Source of the DNA: Chloroflexota bacterium
GTDB taxonomy: Bacteria; Chloroflexota; Anaerolineae; Anaerolineales; UBA4823
NCBI GenBank assembly: GCA_029265355.1
Contig: JAJUJL010000001.1
Coordinates: forward strand, 1 to 64,000
Direction of reading: 5' to 3'
Length of the DNA: 64,000 nt
Positions 14,563 through 26,271 of this stretch are shown piece after piece. A model generated the notes under the pieces. That model did not search any database and was not told the DNA's origin. It saw nothing but the letters and a program-made list of their open reading frames with translations. Every line of letters starts with the position of its first letter. Within the stretch, counting starts at the first letter, position 1. A program made the translations under genes and the position numbers.

Positions 14563-16185
14563 TCAGGAAACCGCTTCGCGCGGCTGGGTGGTCTCTTTCT
14601 CGCGCCCGTAATAATTCTGATACGTGTAATAGTAATTGCGGTAGTAGGAATAGCGATAGCGCGAGCTCTTGACCTCGACATCGTTGAGCACCACGCCCAG
14701 GATGTTAGCGCCCACCCGGTTGAGCTGCTCGATCGCCTGGCGAAAAGCCGCCTGCTTGGTTTTGCCCGGCTTCACCACGATGAGCACGCCGTCCACCCGC
14801 GTTGCCAGCACCGCCGCATCGGTCACCACCAACACCGGGGGCGTATCCAGCACGATCATATCCAGGTGATTGCCCAACTGCCCCAGGATGTCACCCATGC
14901 GCCCCGAGCCAAGCAGCTCAGCCGGGTTGGGCGGCAGCTCACCGGAGGTGATCGCCATCAGGTTGCTCACGTCCGTTCTCTGCAGGGCGCCGTTCACCGC
15001 GGCCTGGGGCTGCACAAAGACCGAGCTCAAGCCGTAACGGTTGGGCAGGTTCATCTTTTTGTGCACCTGCGGCTTTCTCAAGTCGGCTTCGACCAGCGCC
15101 ACGCGCAGCCCGGACTGCGCCAGGCTGATGCTCAGGTTGGCAGCCACGGTCGATTTGCCATCTTCAGGCGATGGGCTGGTGATCAGCATGCTGCGCACCG
15201 GCTTGTCCACGCTGGCAAACTGAATGTTGGTGCGCAGCGAGCGGAAAGCCTCCGAAACCGGCGAGCGCGGCTGTGTCTTGACCACCATGGAAGCGCCATC
15301 CGTGGGGTGACGGGCAATGACGCCCAAAATGGGCAGCCCAAACTGGCGCGACACCATATCTGGGGAGAGGGAATCGTCCAGCGCCTCAAACAGAAAGATG
15401 CCGCCAACAGCCAGCGCCAGCGCAATCATGCCGGCAAGCACGGCGTTCATCAAAGCTCGCGGCCGGACAGGAGACTTGGGCGCAATGGCTTCCTCCGCCA
15501 AGACCAGGTTTTGCATCGAAGATGACTCTGCCAGCCGCACTTGCTCCAGGGTCTGCAGCAGCGAGGCGCGAATCTGGTTGTACTGCGCCAGCGTCGCCTC
15601 CAGGCGGGTACGCTCGGCATCATTGTCAGAGTTTTCACCCAATGCGTCGATCTTATCGGTGATCTCCGCAATGTCATTGTCGAAGGAATTGATCTGGCTT
15701 TCCAGGCTTTTGATCGACGCCTGGTAACGCTCGCTCTGACGCTCCTGGTTCTGCCGGATGAAGATCTCCACCAGCCTGTTGGCCGTCTCGGCGGCGCGCA
15801 AGGGGTCGGTATCTTCCACGCTGACATCCACCAACTGTGTATCGCGCACCGGCGTGACGGTGATGCGCGAGCGCAGGTTGGTGTAAGTGGTCAAGAGATT
15901 CATATCCTCGACCACGGCCTCCAGCACAGGGCGCGCCACCAGCAGCTCGGCGTAGGTGCGCGCCAGGCGCTCGCTGGTCAACACCGAAGCATAGTCGGTG
16001 GAGCGGCTGTTGGGCGCTTCATTGACCAACACGCGCGCCGTGGCCTGGTAGACGGGCGTCAGGCGCCGTGAAATGAAGTAAGCGCTGGTCCCGGCAACCA
16101 GGGTCACCAACGCCAGCAGCCATGCCCAGCGCCAGAGCAAATCCAGGTACCTTCTTAATTCTTCGGTGAACGATTGATTTTCCAT
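14563..16185 (-). CDS. Wzc-type polysaccharide co-polymerase and tyrosine autokinase
   Basis: A 540-residue inner-membrane protein. A Wzz domain lies between two membrane helices (about 20-38 and 246-266) with coiled coil at 140-225. The BY-kinase domain follows: Walker A SPSPEDGKST (337-346), Walker A' VALVEADLR (362-370) and Walker B LDTPP (446-450). The tail (510-526) holds ten tyrosines, the autophosphorylation cluster. It sets chain length and drives export through cycles of phosphorylation reversed by the LMW phosphatase in the same locus. Both modules are in one chain, as in Gram-negative Wzc rather than the split CpsC/CpsD of Firmicutes, yet no Wza-like exporter gene is present. A terminator follows the gene. 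Confidence 0.92.
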   Translation of the reverse strand: MENQSFTEELRRYLDLLWRWAWLLALVTLVAGTSAYFISRRLTPVYQATARVLVNEAPNSRSTDYASVLTSERLARTYAELLVARPVLEAVVEDMNLLTTYTNLRSRITVTPVRDTQLVDVSVEDTDPLRAAETANRLVEIFIRQNQERQSERYQASIKSLESQINSFDNDIAEITDKIDALGENSDNDAERTRLEATLAQYNQIRASLLQTLEQVRLAESSSMQNLVLAEEAIAPKSPVRPRALMNAVLAGMIALALAVGGIFLFEALDDSLSPDMVSRQFGLPILGVIARHPTDGASMVVKTQPRSPVSEAFRSLRTNIQFASVDKPVRSMLITSPSPEDGKSTVAANLSISLAQSGLRVALVEADLRKPQVHKKMNLPNRYGLSSVFVQPQAAVNGALQRTDVSNLMAITSGELPPNPAELLGSGRMGDILGQLGNHLDMIVLDTPPVLVVTDAAVLATRVDGVLIVVKPGKTKQAAFRQAIEQLNRVGANILGVVLNDVEVKSSRYRYSYYRNYYYTYQNYYGREKETTQPREAVS

Positions 16186-16274: not shown

Positions 16275-17411
16275 CTAGTGCAGCGCCTGGCGCACTGCCG
16301 CAGCCACGGCTTCCAGGTCGGCGGGGCTCATCGTCGGGTAGAGCGGCAGGGTGATTTCTCGCGCCGCCAGCGCCTCGGTGCGCGGCAGTGAAAGATTGGG
16401 ATAAAGTTCCCGATAGTAGCTGAAAGTGTGGATGGGCGGGTAGTGGATGCTGGTCTGGATGCCCTGGCTGCGCAGGTAATCCATGAAAGCTTTCCGGTCC
16501 ACGCCTGGCGGCAGCAGCGCCGGAAAGATGTGATAAACAGGCTCGACGCCCGGCTGGGCTGCCAGTTGCTGAAAAGGCATCTCTAACCAGCCGTCCAGCG
16601 CTTCCCAGTAAGCGCGGGTGAGCTGGCCGCGGCGGGCGTTGTTCAGCGCCAGCTTCTGCAATTGGGCCACACCCAGGGCAGCGCGCAGCTCATCCATGCG
16701 GTAGTTATAGCCCAATCCCACCACATCGTAGGAATAGGCATGCCCCTGGTGGCGATCCCAGGTCAGGCTGGTCATGCCATGCGAGCGCAGCACACGCAGC
16801 TTGTCTGCCAAATCATCGCGATCGGTGGTCAGCATGCCGCCTTCGCCGGTCGCCAGGTTCTTATTCGAGAAAAAGCTGAAGCAGCCCACATCCCCCCATG
16901 CGCCCAGGCTGCGACCTCCCAGGCGCGCCCCAGGCGCATGGGCGGCGTCTTCGATCACCGCCAGGTTGTGGCGGTGGGCGATGCTCAATATTGCCTGCAT
17001 CTGGCATGGATAGCCGGCGTAGTGCACCACGATCACCGCCCGAGTGCGCGGTGTGATCAAACGCTCGATATCCGCAGGATCGATATTCAAATCATGGGCG
17101 CCGGTCACTTCGGAGAAGCGCACCTGCGCGCCGGTGTACAAAACAGCATTCGATGTCGCCACAAAGGTCAGTGAAGGCGCGATGACTTCATCCCCCGGCC
17201 CAATGCCCAGCGCCAGGCAAGCCAGGTGCAGCGCCACGGTGGCATTGGACACCGCCAGGGCATGCTTGCATCCCACCAGCGTAGCAAACTCGCTCTCGAA
17301 ACGCTGGGTGACCGCGCCCATCGTCAACCAGCGGCTGTCCAACACCTGGAGCACAGCCTGGCGCTCTTCTTCGCCGTAATCCAAATCCGAAAGCGGCACC
17401 CGCCAGCTCAT
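16275..17411 (-). CDS. DegT/DnrJ/EryC1-type sugar aminotransferase
   Basis: A 378-residue PLP enzyme of fold type I. The Schiff-base Lys is about residue 184 in 'FFSNKNLATGEGG', preceded by the EDAAHAPGA cofactor-binding Asp block. Length and motifs match aminotransferases that convert a 4-keto NDP-sugar into a 4-amino sugar. The LegB-like dehydratase two genes upstream would supply such a keto sugar. AGGAG lies 9 bases before the ATG at 17411 and directly abuts an ATG 9 bases further upstream, so the inner start is chosen. It begins 1 base after the preceding gene. The exact sugar product is not determinable. Confidence 0.88.
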   Translation of the reverse strand: MSWRVPLSDLDYGEEERQAVLQVLDSRWLTMGAVTQRFESEFATLVGCKHALAVSNATVALHLACLALGIGPGDEVIAPSLTFVATSNAVLYTGAQVRFSEVTGAHDLNIDPADIERLITPRTRAVIVVHYAGYPCQMQAILSIAHRHNLAVIEDAAHAPGARLGGRSLGAWGDVGCFSFFSNKNLATGEGGMLTTDRDDLADKLRVLRSHGMTSLTWDRHQGHAYSYDVVGLGYNYRMDELRAALGVAQLQKLALNNARRGQLTRAYWEALDGWLEMPFQQLAAQPGVEPVYHIFPALLPPGVDRKAFMDYLRSQGIQTSIHYPPIHTFSYYRELYPNLSLPRTEALAAREITLPLYPTMSPADLEAVAAAVRQALH

Positions 17412-17412
17412 C

Positions 17413-18135
17413 TCATTCATCTCCTAAGATCTGCGGTCGCAACGTTTCCCATTCCTGGACAGCCTGTTCGTAATCGTCCGGGCGACCCAGGTCTTGCCAG
17501 TAGCCATCGAAGGGATAGCCCATCACCCGCTCACCAGCTTGCAGCAGGCGCAGCACCAGGTCGGGAAAATCCAGGCGCTGGTTGCGCTCCACATACTGCA
17601 GCACACGCGGCTCGAATACGTAAATGCCCATGCTCACCCGAAAATCGTAAGTCGGTTTTTCGATGTAGCCTGTCACTCGGTTAGAACGCCCGGGATGGGC
17701 ATCGAAGCGAATCACACCCAGGTCGACGTGCACACGGCGGGTGTGCGTGGCGATGGTCGCGACGGCATGCGAGCTGCGGTGGAAAGCGATCAGGTCTTTC
17801 AGCTCCAGGTTGGTGAGCACATCCCCATTGGTCACCAGGAAAGTGTCGTCCAGGCCATCCACCAGGGAAAGCGGCCCGGCAGTGCCCAACGGCTTGTCCT
17901 CGTAGCTGTAGCGAATGTTCAGCCCCCAGCGGCTGCCATCCTGGAAGAAAGCATTCAACAAGCCCGACAGGTGTCCCACGGTCAGAATCACCTCGTCCAC
18001 GCCGGCGCGCCGCATCTGGCGCAGCAAGATCTCCAGGATCGGCATATCGCCGATCGGCATCAACGGCTTGGGCAGGATCTTGGTATACGGCGCCAGGCGG
18101 GTGCCTTTACCGCCGGCCAGCACAACAGCTTTCAT
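17413..18135 (-). CDS. NDP-sugar nucleotidyltransferase
   Basis: A 240-residue enzyme with the signature LAGGKGTRLAPYT near the N-terminus, KPLMPIGDMP, and the catalytic-loop 'LVTNGDVL'. This is the single-domain form of the mannose-1-phosphate guanylyltransferase / glucose-1-phosphate thymidylyltransferase superfamily. It activates a sugar 1-phosphate with NTP. With Gmd encoded in the locus, GDP-mannose formation is one possibility; activation for the LegB/DegT branch is another. GGAG 9 bases before the ATG at 18135 favours it over a GTG six bases upstream. Base specificity cannot be told. Confidence 0.85.
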   Translation of the reverse strand: MKAVVLAGGKGTRLAPYTKILPKPLMPIGDMPILEILLRQMRRAGVDEVILTVGHLSGLLNAFFQDGSRWGLNIRYSYEDKPLGTAGPLSLVDGLDDTFLVTNGDVLTNLELKDLIAFHRSSHAVATIATHTRRVHVDLGVIRFDAHPGRSNRVTGYIEKPTYDFRVSMGIYVFEPRVLQYVERNQRLDFPDLVLRLLQAGERVMGYPFDGYWQDLGRPDDYEQAVQEWETLRPQILGDE

Positions 18136-18147
18136 CTGCACAAACTC

Positions 18148-19143
18148 CTATACCTGGTACTGGTCCGGACGATACATATCCAGATGCTCGCGGATCCACG
18201 CCACCGTGCGCTGCAGGCCGTCCTGCAGGGAGACTCGCGGCTGCCAGCCCAGGCGCTGGCGCGCCAGGCGATTATCAGAGAGCAAACGCTGCACCTCGCT
18301 CTTTTCCGGGCGCAAGCGGGCCTCCTCCACCAGGATGCGCACCGGGCGCTGCACGATGGACAGGATGATCTCCACCAGTTCGCCGATGCGCACCTCCTCC
18401 CCTGTGCCCAGGTTGAAGGTCTCGCCCAGCACATCCGGCGCCAGCGCGACCGCCAGGAAGCCCTGCACCGTGTCGGAGACGTAGGTCATATCGCGGCGGG
18501 CGTCCAGGTTGCCCAGGCGCACCACCTCGCCGGTCAGCGCCTGGGTGATGATGGTGGGGATCACGGCGCGCGCCGATTGGCGCGGGCCGTAGGTGTTGAA
18601 CGGGCGCAGGGTGACCACCGGCACATCGAAAGCGCGGTAAAAGCTCTCCGCCAGCTTATCAGCGCCAATTTTGCTGGCCGAATACGGCGATTGGCCCTGC
18701 AGAGGGTGAGCTTCGTCGATTGGCACACGCAGCGCCGTACCATACACCTCGCTGGTGGAGGTGTGCACCAGCCGCTCCACCCCAGCTTGCCGGCAGGCCA
18801 GCAGCACATTGAGCGTGCCGATGACATTGGTCTCTACCACTTCGGCCGGGTGGACATAGGAATAGGGAATGGCGATCAGCGCACCCAGGTGAAAGACATG
18901 CGAAACCCCCTCCACAGCTTTCTGCACAGCGGGCAGGTCGCGCAGGTCGCCAGCCACCAGCTCGAGTTTCTTGAACGCCTCGGGCGGCAGCATGCGCAGC
19001 AAGCCCGGGTCTCCCCGCGAGTTGTAACGCACGAAAGCCCGCACCTGTGCGCCCTGCTCCAGCAGCGCTTCGACCAGGTGGCTGGCGATGAAGCCGCCCG
19101 CGCCTGTCACCAGAACCCGGCGTCCTTGCCAGTGATCGGTCAT
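18148..19143 (-). CDS. LegB-like NDP-sugar 4,6-dehydratase (extended SDR)
   Basis: A 331-residue Rossmann enzyme: VTGAGGFIASH at 12-22 binds NAD, Ser129-Thr-Ser-Glu precedes VYG, and Tyr154-x3-Lys158 completes the catalytic set. The stretches 'HTSTSEVYGTA', 'SPYSASKIGADK' and 'RPFNTYGPRQSARAVIPTII' are characteristic of the LegB branch (GDP-GlcNAc 4,6-dehydratase of legionaminic acid synthesis). With the DegT aminotransferase it would make a 4-amino-4,6-dideoxy sugar. No LegI/NeuB synthase or epimerase is in the window, so a plain amino sugar is more likely than a nonulosonate. It sits 4 bases after the sugar transferase gene. Confidence 0.82.
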   Translation of the reverse strand: MTDHWQGRRVLVTGAGGFIASHLVEALLEQGAQVRAFVRYNSRGDPGLLRMLPPEAFKKLELVAGDLRDLPAVQKAVEGVSHVFHLGALIAIPYSYVHPAEVVETNVIGTLNVLLACRQAGVERLVHTSTSEVYGTALRVPIDEAHPLQGQSPYSASKIGADKLAESFYRAFDVPVVTLRPFNTYGPRQSARAVIPTIITQALTGEVVRLGNLDARRDMTYVSDTVQGFLAVALAPDVLGETFNLGTGEEVRIGELVEIILSIVQRPVRILVEEARLRPEKSEVQRLLSDNRLARQRLGWQPRVSLQDGLQRTVAWIREHLDMYRPDQYQV

Positions 19144-19147
19144 CTCG

Positions 19148-20944
19148 TCATGATCCGTGGTGTGGAATGTTCAGCACCTGCTCGCTGCCGGGCGACCTGG
19201 CTTCATCCGCGACCAGGCTGCTGCGCAGGTCGTGCAGGCACTGGCGCGCAGCGGACAGGTCGCCATCTTCCAGGTGCGCTTCCAGCTCTGCCAGCAAGGC
19301 GCTCACCCGCTCTGCTGGCGGTTTGGATGCCGTGTCCTGCCGGACATCGTCTTCCAAAGAAGACGGCGCAGGGGGTGCGCTCAAGCCTGGCCCACCCGGG
19401 AGACTCGTTTTCCCGCTTGCCTGCGAGCCATTCACCGCATGGCGCAGGCTGGCCAACAAATCCGGCGCGAACACCACCCTGGCAGGGGTGGATTTGCAGA
19501 TCTCCAGAACGCTGCGCCGTTCTTCTTCCGGGATGTTGTGGATGGCAAATAAAATGATGCCAATATCGTATTTGCGCACCAACTGGGGAATATCCTCGCG
19601 CCGCCCCAGCACGTTGGCGCCGCGGATGCGCATCTGCTGCTTGTAAAGATCGTCGTCCACATAGCCCACCACGCGGAACGCCGAGCCGGCCCGCCCAGCT
19701 TGTAACCACCAGGCAAAGAATTGCCCGGCCTCGCCCACGCCAACGATCAGCACCCGTTCGCGGGCATCCATGGCCCCCGGTCGCGCCGCCACCAGGCGCG
19801 CCGCCAGGGTTGCCAGCAGGCGCTCGCGGTAGCGCACCGTCACGAAGCCGATCCCCGCCAGGCCCGCCCCCATCACGATCAGCGCTGGCGGCAGCGGCCC
19901 GCCCGGGTAATCCAGCACCCCGCCCTGCCACAGCGAGCTAACCAGCAGCGCCAACAAAGTGCCCAGGCCCAACGCCGGCAGCAGGTCCAGCGCATCGGTG
20001 AAATTGGCCTGCGACCAGACGATGCGGTTGACGCCCATGAAGGCGCAGGTGGCGCTGAACAGGATGGAAAAACCCAGCGCCAGCACCAGCGATTTGAACA
20101 GGCCGACGTTCAGCGGGCCAAACGAGCGCCAAAACACGCCCACCACGCCCAGGGCGACGAACGTCACCAGCAGGTCCACGATGAACCAGGAGACATAGCG
20201 CGTCATCAGGCGCGACAGCGGCCCCAAGAACAGGCGCTCCGGCAGCGGCTGGCGGGCAAACTCCTGCGGCAGCAGCACCAGGAAAGTCCACAGGATCACG
20301 TCCATGTCCAGCCAGAAGCTGCGGTTGCGCACGTAGAGTTGGTCCAGGCGCAGCTTGCTGGGTAAGATGTCTTCCAGGTAAGCATCCATGAGGTTGCCGT
20401 GGTGCAGCAGCGCTTCTTCATTGCGGTAGAGCACCGAGGCCGGGCTGGTGATGCCGGGGCGCACCGAGAGCACCTCGTTGCGCACCACCTCCGGCCAACC
20501 GGCCCCAATCTCAGGGTCCTCGGGCCGCGGCCCGACCAGGCTCATCTCACCCACCAGCACATTCCAGAGCTGCGGCAGCTCGTTGAGCTTGGTACTGCGC
20601 AGCCAGGCGCCCAGCGGCGTGATGCGCGCATCGCCCTGGGCCGTCACCCGTGGGCCATCATAGGACTCGGGGCGCTCGTACATGGTGCGAAACTTGAGGA
20701 TCTTGAACACCCGCCCGCCCTTGCCCAGGCGCGGCCCGCGGTAAAAGACCGGCCCGGGCGAATCGCGCTTGATCAGCAGCGCCACCAACAGAAACAGCGG
20801 CGAGAGCAGCGCCAGCCCGAACAACGCTGCCAGGATATCCACCAGGCGCTTGAGGCCATCGTACAGGCGGCGCGGCCGCGGCCGCGCCAGCGGTATGGTG
20901 CGAAGCGAATCCGTTCGGGGGGGAGAGACTGTGCCAGATTGCAT
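19148..20944 (-). CDS. Initiating polyprenyl-phosphate sugar phosphotransferase with inverted domain order
   Basis: A 598-residue membrane protein. The catalytic bacterial sugar transferase domain is at the N-terminus (about 25-255): KRLVDILAA, then '[11 protein letters not shown]', '[14 protein letters not shown]' and [14 protein letters not shown]. Behind it come about four membrane helices (about 275-400) and a Rossmann-like CoA_binding_3 domain ('[13 protein letters not shown]', then VVGYVDDD) followed by a disordered acidic tail of about 80 residues. In WbaP/EpsE-type enzymes the helices and Rossmann domain precede the transferase domain, so this chain is permuted. It loads a sugar 1-phosphate on undecaprenyl phosphate, the first step of repeat-unit assembly. 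A -10 and palindrome lie just upstream. Confidence 0.88.
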
Positions 20945-25114: not shown

Positions 25115-25711
25115 TTATCCGATCACTCTTGCAGGGTTGCCAGCCGCTATCCTACCTGCAGGTACATCGCGGGTCACCACACTGCCGGCGCCGATCACGC
25201 AGCCGTGCCCCAGCCTGACACCCTTGAGCACCAGGCTATGCATGCCGATGAAGACGTCGTCTTCGATCACTACCGGGGCGGCGGGGGCGTCATTGGGGTG
25301 CAAACGGCGTTCCACCGGGTCGAGCGGGTGAAAGTCGGTGTCGATGATGGTGCAGTTAGCGCCCACGGTAACACGGTCGCCGATGCGGATAGAGCGCGCA
25401 GCGCAGATCACGCCGCCGGTCATGGCAAAATCGTCGCCGATCACCAGCTCGGCGTACGGCTGCCAGGTGCACAGCACCACCGGATGGGCAGGCGCCAGCG
25501 GGTTAGAGACCAGGCTGGAGCGCAGTCCCAGCCGATCGCCGATGAGCAGTGTGCTGCCGCGGTAGCGCTCGATGAGCGGCACGCCGTGCAGGCGCCAGCC
25601 GCGCCGCCAGGGAATACCGTAGTAAGCAAACAGCAGGCGGGCGCGCGGGTAAGCCAGCCAGCGAGCCAGCTCGCCCCACAACTTCCAGGGAGCGTCCAGG
25701 GTGCGGCGCAT
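25115..25711 (-). CDS. Left-handed beta-helix (hexapeptide) acyltransferase
   Basis: A 198-residue soluble protein. Repeated hexapeptide turns from about residue 60 to 190 ('SIRIGDRVTVGANCTIID', 'VVIEDDVFIGMHSLVLKGVR', 'GCVIGAGSVVTRDVPAG', then AAGNPARVIG) are the LbetaH signature of maltose/galactoside O-acetyltransferase relatives. It probably moves an acyl group from acyl-CoA to a sugar of the unit. The start shares one base with the MaoC gene stop (TGATG). A MaoC enzyme directly upstream could supply an unusual hydroxyacyl donor. It is GC-rich, unlike its flanks. Confidence 0.88.
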   Translation of the reverse strand: MRRTLDAPWKLWGELARWLAYPRARLLFAYYGIPWRRGWRLHGVPLIERYRGSTLLIGDRLGLRSSLVSNPLAPAHPVVLCTWQPYAELVIGDDFAMTGGVICAARSIRIGDRVTVGANCTIIDTDFHPLDPVERRLHPNDAPAAPVVIEDDVFIGMHSLVLKGVRLGHGCVIGAGSVVTRDVPAGRIAAGNPARVIG

Positions 25712-26271
25712 CAGGCTGCCCCTCGGGTTGGATGTCGCGCCGCGATCAGTCGTGAATAGAGTTCCTCCAGGCGGCGTGCGATCGCTGCGCCGATGCCGCG
25801 GTTGGCGCCGGTAACCAAGACAACTTGTGAAGGCAATTCAGTCACGTTTTTTTCCTCGATCAGCTCCAACAACTTTACCGTGGCGCGGCCGGTCACTACC
25901 CTCTGGGCGCGCTGGTTCGTAAGTTGGATATCCAACAGCAGGGTGCGCGTCGCCGGCGAGATTTGCGCCACCTGGCCCGAGATTTTCAGGGTGTCGCCGA
26001 TGTACGTGGGGTGGAGGAACTCCAGGGTCTGCGAAGTCCACAGCGCCCCCGGACCCGGCAGCACCATCCCGATCAAGGTCGAGATGAACGCGGATGACAG
26101 CATCCCGTGCACGACCGGTTTTTGCAAGGAGGTGCGCCTGGCAAACTGCTCGTCGACGTGCAGCGGGTTTCGATCCCCTGTCAACCGCATGAAGGTTTCC
26201 ACGTCATCTTGTGTAACGGTGTGCTCGAGCTCTGCGATCTCGCCGACCTTAAACTGCTCGATCGATTTCAT
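25711..26271 (-). CDS. MaoC-type dehydratase with a cut-off SDR tail
   Basis: A 186-residue protein. Residues 1-140 form a hot-dog MaoC domain with the hydratase signature 'DRNPLHVDEQFARRT' and 'PVVHGMLSSAF' (catalytic Asp/His set), as in R-specific enoyl-CoA hydratases. Residues 147-176 are the first strand, glycine loop and first helix of a short-chain dehydrogenase ('VVLVTGANRGIGAAIARRLEE'). The chain then ends, lacking the Ser-Tyr-Lys part and over 200 residues of a normal SDR. This is best read as a MaoC-SDR fusion gene that lost its 3' part. The MaoC domain may still work, giving 3-hydroxyacyl groups to the adjacent acyltransferase. Confidence 0.75.
   Translation of the reverse strand: MKSIEQFKVGEIAELEHTVTQDDVETFMRLTGDRNPLHVDEQFARRTSLQKPVVHGMLSSAFISTLIGMVLPGPGALWTSQTLEFLHPTYIGDTLKISGQVAQISPATRTLLLDIQLTNQRAQRVVTGRATVKLLELIEEKNVTELPSQVVLVTGANRGIGAAIARRLEELYSRLIAARHPTRGAA

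Follow-up and report, generated by a model that had tools for sequence, protein, structure and literature searches.

In the window (the whole 64,000-nucleotide stretch of Chloroflexota DNA analysed here), one gene encodes a protein in which a phosphoglycosyl transferase (PGT) domain of the small monotopic type is fused to the N-terminal half of a PglF/CapD dehydratase whose SDR catalytic domain has been lost. This composition is shown, at the level of sequence, by a tree of the membrane and Rossmann module, by the grouping of the PGT domain and by fusion intermediates. We think it rather probable that this protein, encoded at the head of a probable amino-sugar operon, loads a sugar-1-phosphate onto undecaprenyl phosphate using an Asn-Glu pair where other superfamily members are described as having Asp-Glu.

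Domain organization and distribution

A preliminary description of the gene had placed the transferase domain first, with the membrane helices and a Rossmann-like domain behind it. Pfam matches, an AF2 model and structure matches confirm this order (Table 1). The 598-aa protein matches Bac_transf (PF02397) at 190.7 bits (E 2e-56), far past the curated Pfam cut-off of 27 bits. Its match to CoA_binding_3 (PF13727) at residues 390–494 is weak (22.2 bits, E 1.6e-4) and lies just below the cut-off of 25 bits, but relatives score well above it (e.g., 43.3 bits in L056). Bac_transf is matched by 58 of 58 family members and CoA_binding_3 by 56 of 58 at E 0.01 or better, with a best E of 3.9e-15. Residues 394–503 of the model also match the Rossmann domain 3nkl (Z 16.2, VIA-align), and the earlier assignment of the C-terminal half to CoA_binding_3 holds. 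A domain search that included Pfam found no match to an SDR catalytic domain in the 598-aa protein.

The AF2 model (pLDDT 85.7, pTM 0.70) runs from a long first helix (residues 25–61) through the PGT fold, four helices (242–275, 282–302, 315–338 and 353–371) and the Rossmann fold to a helical hairpin. Residues 15–229 match PglC and WbaP at Z 19–21 (VIA-align; WbaP Z 20.8, PglC Z 19.0). What had been described as an acidic tail resolves in the model into a disordered linker (512–540) and a two-helix hairpin (544–559 and 563–583). The membrane topology had been expected to differ from that of the known class, but this need not follow: because an even number of helices stands between them, the PGT domain on one side and the Rossmann domain and tail on the other could all be cytosolic, with the four helices in between.

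Table 1. Coordinates of the fusion gene, its parts and the downstream genes in the window
Feature	Position	Strand	Evidence
Whole gene, 598 aa: PGT domain, four helices, Rossmann domain, tail	19148..20944	(-)	ORF from ATG; order common to 74 distinct proteins
Reentrant membrane helix, residues 25-61, D36-X12-P49 motif	20762..20872	(-)	AF2 helix; D36 and P49 in 74/74
Bac_transf (phosphoglycosyl transferase) domain, residues 32-225	20270..20851	(-)	Pfam E 2e-56; PglC/WbaP Z 19-21
Asn121-Glu122, position of the catalytic Asp-Glu dyad (PglC D93-E94)	20579..20584	(-)	Asn 74/74, Glu 74/74
RNEE motif, residues 174-177, position of PglC Arg145 and following	20414..20425	(-)	E176 74/74, E177 73/74
Four predicted membrane helices, residues 242-371	19832..20221	(-)	AF2 model
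CoA_binding_3-like Rossmann domain, residues 390-494, PglF/CapD origin	19463..19777	(-)	Pfam; 3nkl Z 16.2; module tree
Tail helical hairpin, residues 544-583; GGDEF or REC instead in some relatives	19196..19315	(-)	AF2; Pfam of relatives
SDR, LegB-like NDP-sugar 4,6-dehydratase, next gene	18148..19143	(-)	TIGR04180 425 bits, cut-off 475; conserved neighbour
Sugar-1-phosphate nucleotidyltransferase	17413..18141	(-)	NCBIfam and PDB matches; conserved neighbour
DegT aminotransferase, nearest PseC/ArnB	16275..17420	(-)	Conserved neighbour
Wzz/BY-kinase, polysaccharide co-polymerase with tyrosine autokinase	14563..16185	(-)	TIGR01007 196 bits, above cut-off; frequent neighbour

A scan of 84,980 species genomes found ∼70 loci with the PGT-first order, nearly all of them in Anaerolineae, and together with whole-genome searches it yielded 74 distinct fused proteins. 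The survey of genomes that the preliminary description had called for shows that, of 298 genomes from the class, 18 (belonging to 12 of 187 genera) have the fused order; within the bacterial family of the window's own genome, a long match in this order occurs in 11 of 38. Carriers of the PGT-first ORF include the cultured Thermanaerothrix daxensis, Levilinea saccharolytica and Ornatilinea apprima, and two Verrucomicrobiota-group genomes (L049, L106) also have the fused order. The ORF is unbroken in all 74 distinct proteins, those of the three cultured species among them, and we therefore exclude, with near certainty, an assembly or sequencing error that joined two genes. We found no paper on the initiating transferases of Anaerolineae.

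Origin of the fused protein

The membrane and Rossmann parts lie C-terminal to the PGT domain, unlike in the definition of large PGTs (WbaP type), and the protein had been read as a permuted WbaP/EpsE-type enzyme. The reversed order and both domains stand; the kinship does not. A true circular permutation, in which a WbaP-type large PGT had its helices and Rossmann domain relocated to the C-terminal side of the transferase domain, would account for the same three parts in reversed order. It would also fit the alignment with L022, a canonical large PGT from the bacterial family of the window's genome, whose residues 70–275 align with residues 290–500 of the window protein and residues 299–487 with 25–225, so that the two blocks are swapped. 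Nonetheless, trees and profiles make such a permutation highly improbable.

We built a module tree from the membrane/Rossmann module cut from fused proteins, large PGTs and CapD-type dehydratases. In this tree a branch with support 98/97 sets all 12 large PGTs apart, and the module of the window family lies among the N-terminal halves of PglF/CapD dehydratases, where it groups first with the L199 module (99/95) and next with CapD modules from other Chloroflexota (99/97). Profile comparison likewise places the module nearer to CapD (E 4.7e-36) than to large PGTs (E 2.4e-24). The PGT domain of the fused family, in turn, falls among small PGTs in the PGT tree. Intermediates of a fusion also exist. 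Separate DegT, PGT and CapD genes stand next to each other at L217 and L221, an intermediate stage, and L199 encodes a PGT with aspartate at the nucleophile position (D-type, as opposed to N-type with asparagine) fused to a CapD whose sequence continues into the SDR domain before the contig ends.

Two Desulfobacterota genomes encode a PGT with the module but without the SDR domain (L200, L201). Two fusions are likely, though the question is not settled, since a single fusion origin gives AU p 0.013 on the modules and 0.049 on the PGT domains; the Desulfobacterota proteins probably record the second. PglF-like dehydratases and large PGTs have their N-terminal module in common, a likeness that was called puzzling in 2024 (PMC10942596), and the fused family shows this module moved between dehydratases and PGTs by gene fusion. 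Elsewhere in the window's own genome (G000:C49:50822-52831; L005, L039, L041), a CapD gene comes immediately after a canonical large PGT, and both kinds of CoA_binding_3 module stand there side by side.

The catalytic site

The active site of PglC comprises the dyad D93-E94 together with K59, R88 and R111, and its reentrant helix carries a DX12P motif (PMC12802240). A two-step reaction has been proposed in which the aspartate of the dyad acts as nucleophile (PMC7729866). An Asp-Glu dyad has been stated for all superfamily members; simulations show Arg145 of PglC binding undecaprenyl phosphate, and this residue is important for activity (PMC10519829). In the fused proteins, by contrast, the residue aligned with PglC Asp93 is Asn121 in 74 of 74, followed in every one by Glu122, so that the pair is Asn-Glu throughout. 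The other residues are kept: D36 and P49 of the DX12P motif, K84, R140 and E122 are invariant (74 of 74) and R116 is present in 73, with K84, R116 and R140 equivalent to PglC K59, R88 and R111/112. Judged by sequence, the window protein is a Bac_transf homologue, and we refrain from classing it among the canonical Asp-dyad PGTs.

The PGT domain is the best-conserved part of the fused protein: across the family, mean pairwise identity is 0.61 there, compared with 0.36 in the helical part and 0.39 in the Rossmann part. Such conservation of the domain and of its remaining catalytic residues argues for a working active site, whereas the exchange of a supposedly essential nucleophile in every member puts activity in doubt. 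Counted from the position of PglC Arg145, two further acidic residues, E176 and E177, follow at +2 and +3. Apart from L213, all N-type proteins have glutamate at the E176 position, and in nearly all of them E177 is present as well; D-type relatives are variable at both positions. We hypothesize only that the pair might stand in for the aspartate.

Surveys with exact patterns on genome samples place the exchange in a wider setting. Among 251 Chloroflexota genomes, the pattern K-x-(D/N)-E-L-P-Q matched 13 places of each type: every N-type place is a fused ORF, and one D-type place is fused (L147, the same gene as L199). The matches listed from 198 Desulfobacterota genomes are all D except L183/L201, which is also fused. 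Stand-alone N-type small PGTs occur in Bacteroidota (4/247 genomes), the Verrucomicrobiota group (7/240) and Methylomirabilota (1/95). Those at L202–L212, from Bacteroidota and the Verrucomicrobiota group, are stand-alone Asn-Glu small PGTs that nearly all carry an RDEE motif. When the nucleophile column is masked, the PGT tree requires five changes of D/N state, and a single N-type clade is rejected (p 7e-6, computed without the long row L213). The test thus rejects one common origin for the asparagine, and the D/N exchange is recurrent. Nor is asparagine strictly tied to the fused order, since stand-alone N-type and fused D-type proteins (L199, L200) both exist.

Gene neighbourhood

The fusion gene heads an operon in which the SDR, nucleotidyltransferase, aminotransferase and Wzz/BY-kinase genes follow downstream. 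Most relatives have the identical gene set in identical order, with an SDR that mostly shares 60–75% identity. The set is kept even at L201 in Desulfobacterota, with SDR (60%) and nucleotidyltransferase swapped, and an SDR (53%) and a nucleotidyltransferase adjoin the N-type stand-alone PGT L213. D-type PGTs of other Chloroflexota often adjoin CapD and DegT instead. Six further Bac_transf proteins are encoded in the same genome.

The SDR scores below the LegB equivalog cut-off (TIGR04180; 425 versus 475 bits). Taken together, the neighbouring families suggest an NDP-4-amino-4,6-dideoxy sugar as the operon product. A non-UDP donor is possible, because the cluster that contains LegB of legionaminic acid biosynthesis also has a GDP-sugar branch (PMC4481668). 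Elsewhere in the window, a MaoC-like ORF at 25711-26271 (-) ends in an apparent cut-off SDR start (VVLVTGANRGIGAAIARRLEE) and has an acyltransferase-like ORF (25115-25711) beside it; this MaoC-like ORF could be a gene that has decayed or undergone fusion.

C-terminal tail and regulatory fusions

Several relatives carry additional domains at the C-terminus. Pfam identifies GGDEF behind the Rossmann domain in seven of them (L050, L056, L063, L081, L089, L090 and L094) and a fused REC (response regulator receiver) domain at L049:5911-8121. The GGDEF motif is degenerate in those inspected (L050, L056, L063, L081 and L099), and the domain is for this reason probably a sensor or contact rather than a cyclase. 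The MAG that carries L049 is labelled Lentisphaerae and shares its phylum sample with the Verrucomicrobia MAG L106; the gene may reflect either lateral transfer or a binning error. In other relatives (L062, L068, L071, L077, L107, L108 and L110) the tail conserves a two-cysteine, FQCQxCLARY-like motif that may be a site for a metal or for contacts. Direct contact with a response regulator is known to switch on the large PGT EpsZ (PMC12802240), which makes regulation through the C-terminal end plausible here as well. The GGDEF and REC fusions would then be natural examples of signals acting on the step at which a surface polysaccharide is begun.

Proposed function and alternative explanations

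In the function that we favour, the operon would supply an NDP-4-amino-4,6-dideoxy sugar, and on the inner side of the membrane the fusion protein would most likely pass the sugar-1-phosphate on to undecaprenyl phosphate, starting a polysaccharide. The dehydratase activity lost with the SDR domain could be supplied in trans by the LegB-like SDR encoded next door. The fused module may serve as membrane anchor, dimer contact and nucleotide sensor, as has been proposed for the DUF of WbaP, which is stabilised by uridine nucleotides in an enzyme inhibited by UMP (PMC10942596). Catalysis by Asn-Glu is a speculative step; it might use another acid (Glu122 or Glu176-Glu177) or proceed without the usual Asp-linked intermediate.

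A different role would follow if the PGT domain were a pseudoenzyme that binds or senses undecaprenyl phosphate or a sugar nucleotide for the Wzz/kinase while another PGT initiates. The asparagine found in 74 of 74 proteins at the proposed nucleophile (PMC7729866) is what one would expect of such a domain, the six other Bac_transf proteins of the genome could provide the initiating enzyme, and the GGDEF and REC fusions of relatives suggest regulation. Against this, all other checked catalytic residues are kept in a domain that is the most conserved of the protein, the D/N exchange recurs in stand-alone small PGTs too, and the gene is the only one for a PGT in its conserved operon among the neighbours listed. 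We consider a pseudoenzyme unlikely. Still less credible is normal Asp chemistry after deamidation of Asn121 in the folded protein, which would restore the usual Asp-Glu dyad. Repeated D/N replacement in the tree around an otherwise kept site would suit it, but a Gly following Asn favours deamidation and the residue after Asn121 is Glu; an asparagine fixed in 74 of 74 proteins would also be an odd way to encode aspartate.

A broader reading, which we advance tentatively and hold to be somewhat short of even, is that the Asn-Glu members of Bac_transf (the fused clade together with several stand-alone small-PGT lineages) are active PGTs without an Asp nucleophile that use another acid or direct attack in a ternary complex. 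As all 74 members of the fused family have asparagine at the catalytic Asp, the accepted mechanism may not be valid for them. The fixed exchange itself contradicts the claim that the Asp-Glu dyad is universal (PMC10519829), and through the Asn members it becomes possible to test directly whether the covalent Asp mechanism is universal. If they are active, there is a second chemistry in a superfamily taken as mechanistically uniform.

Comparison with known systems

The window protein resembles the small monotopic PGTs, such as PglC of Campylobacter, in its fold, reentrant helix and most active-site residues, and its PGT domain groups with them, with PglC itself on another branch of the PGT tree. 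It differs from PglC in having asparagine for the nucleophilic aspartate and in its added C-terminal membrane and Rossmann module. With the large monotopic PGTs (WbaP, EpsE, EpsZ) it has in common four helices, a CoA_binding_3-like domain and a PGT domain, but the order is reversed and the module is of other descent; moreover, WbaP has Asp-Glu where the window protein has Asn-Glu. The swapped β-hairpin of WbaP is not evident either, because the AF2 model has no strands after residue 492.

PglF/CapD UDP-sugar dehydratases have the N-terminal module of four helices and a Rossmann domain that is closest by tree and profile, whereas the window protein lacks their SDR catalytic domain and carries a PGT domain in front. 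Finally, the bifunctional monotopic PGTs, a class named in PMC10942596, likewise combine a PGT core with a C-terminal fusion. L199, in which the PGT is joined to CapD up to the SDR domain, fits this class, while the fused part of the window protein is without a second catalytic domain.
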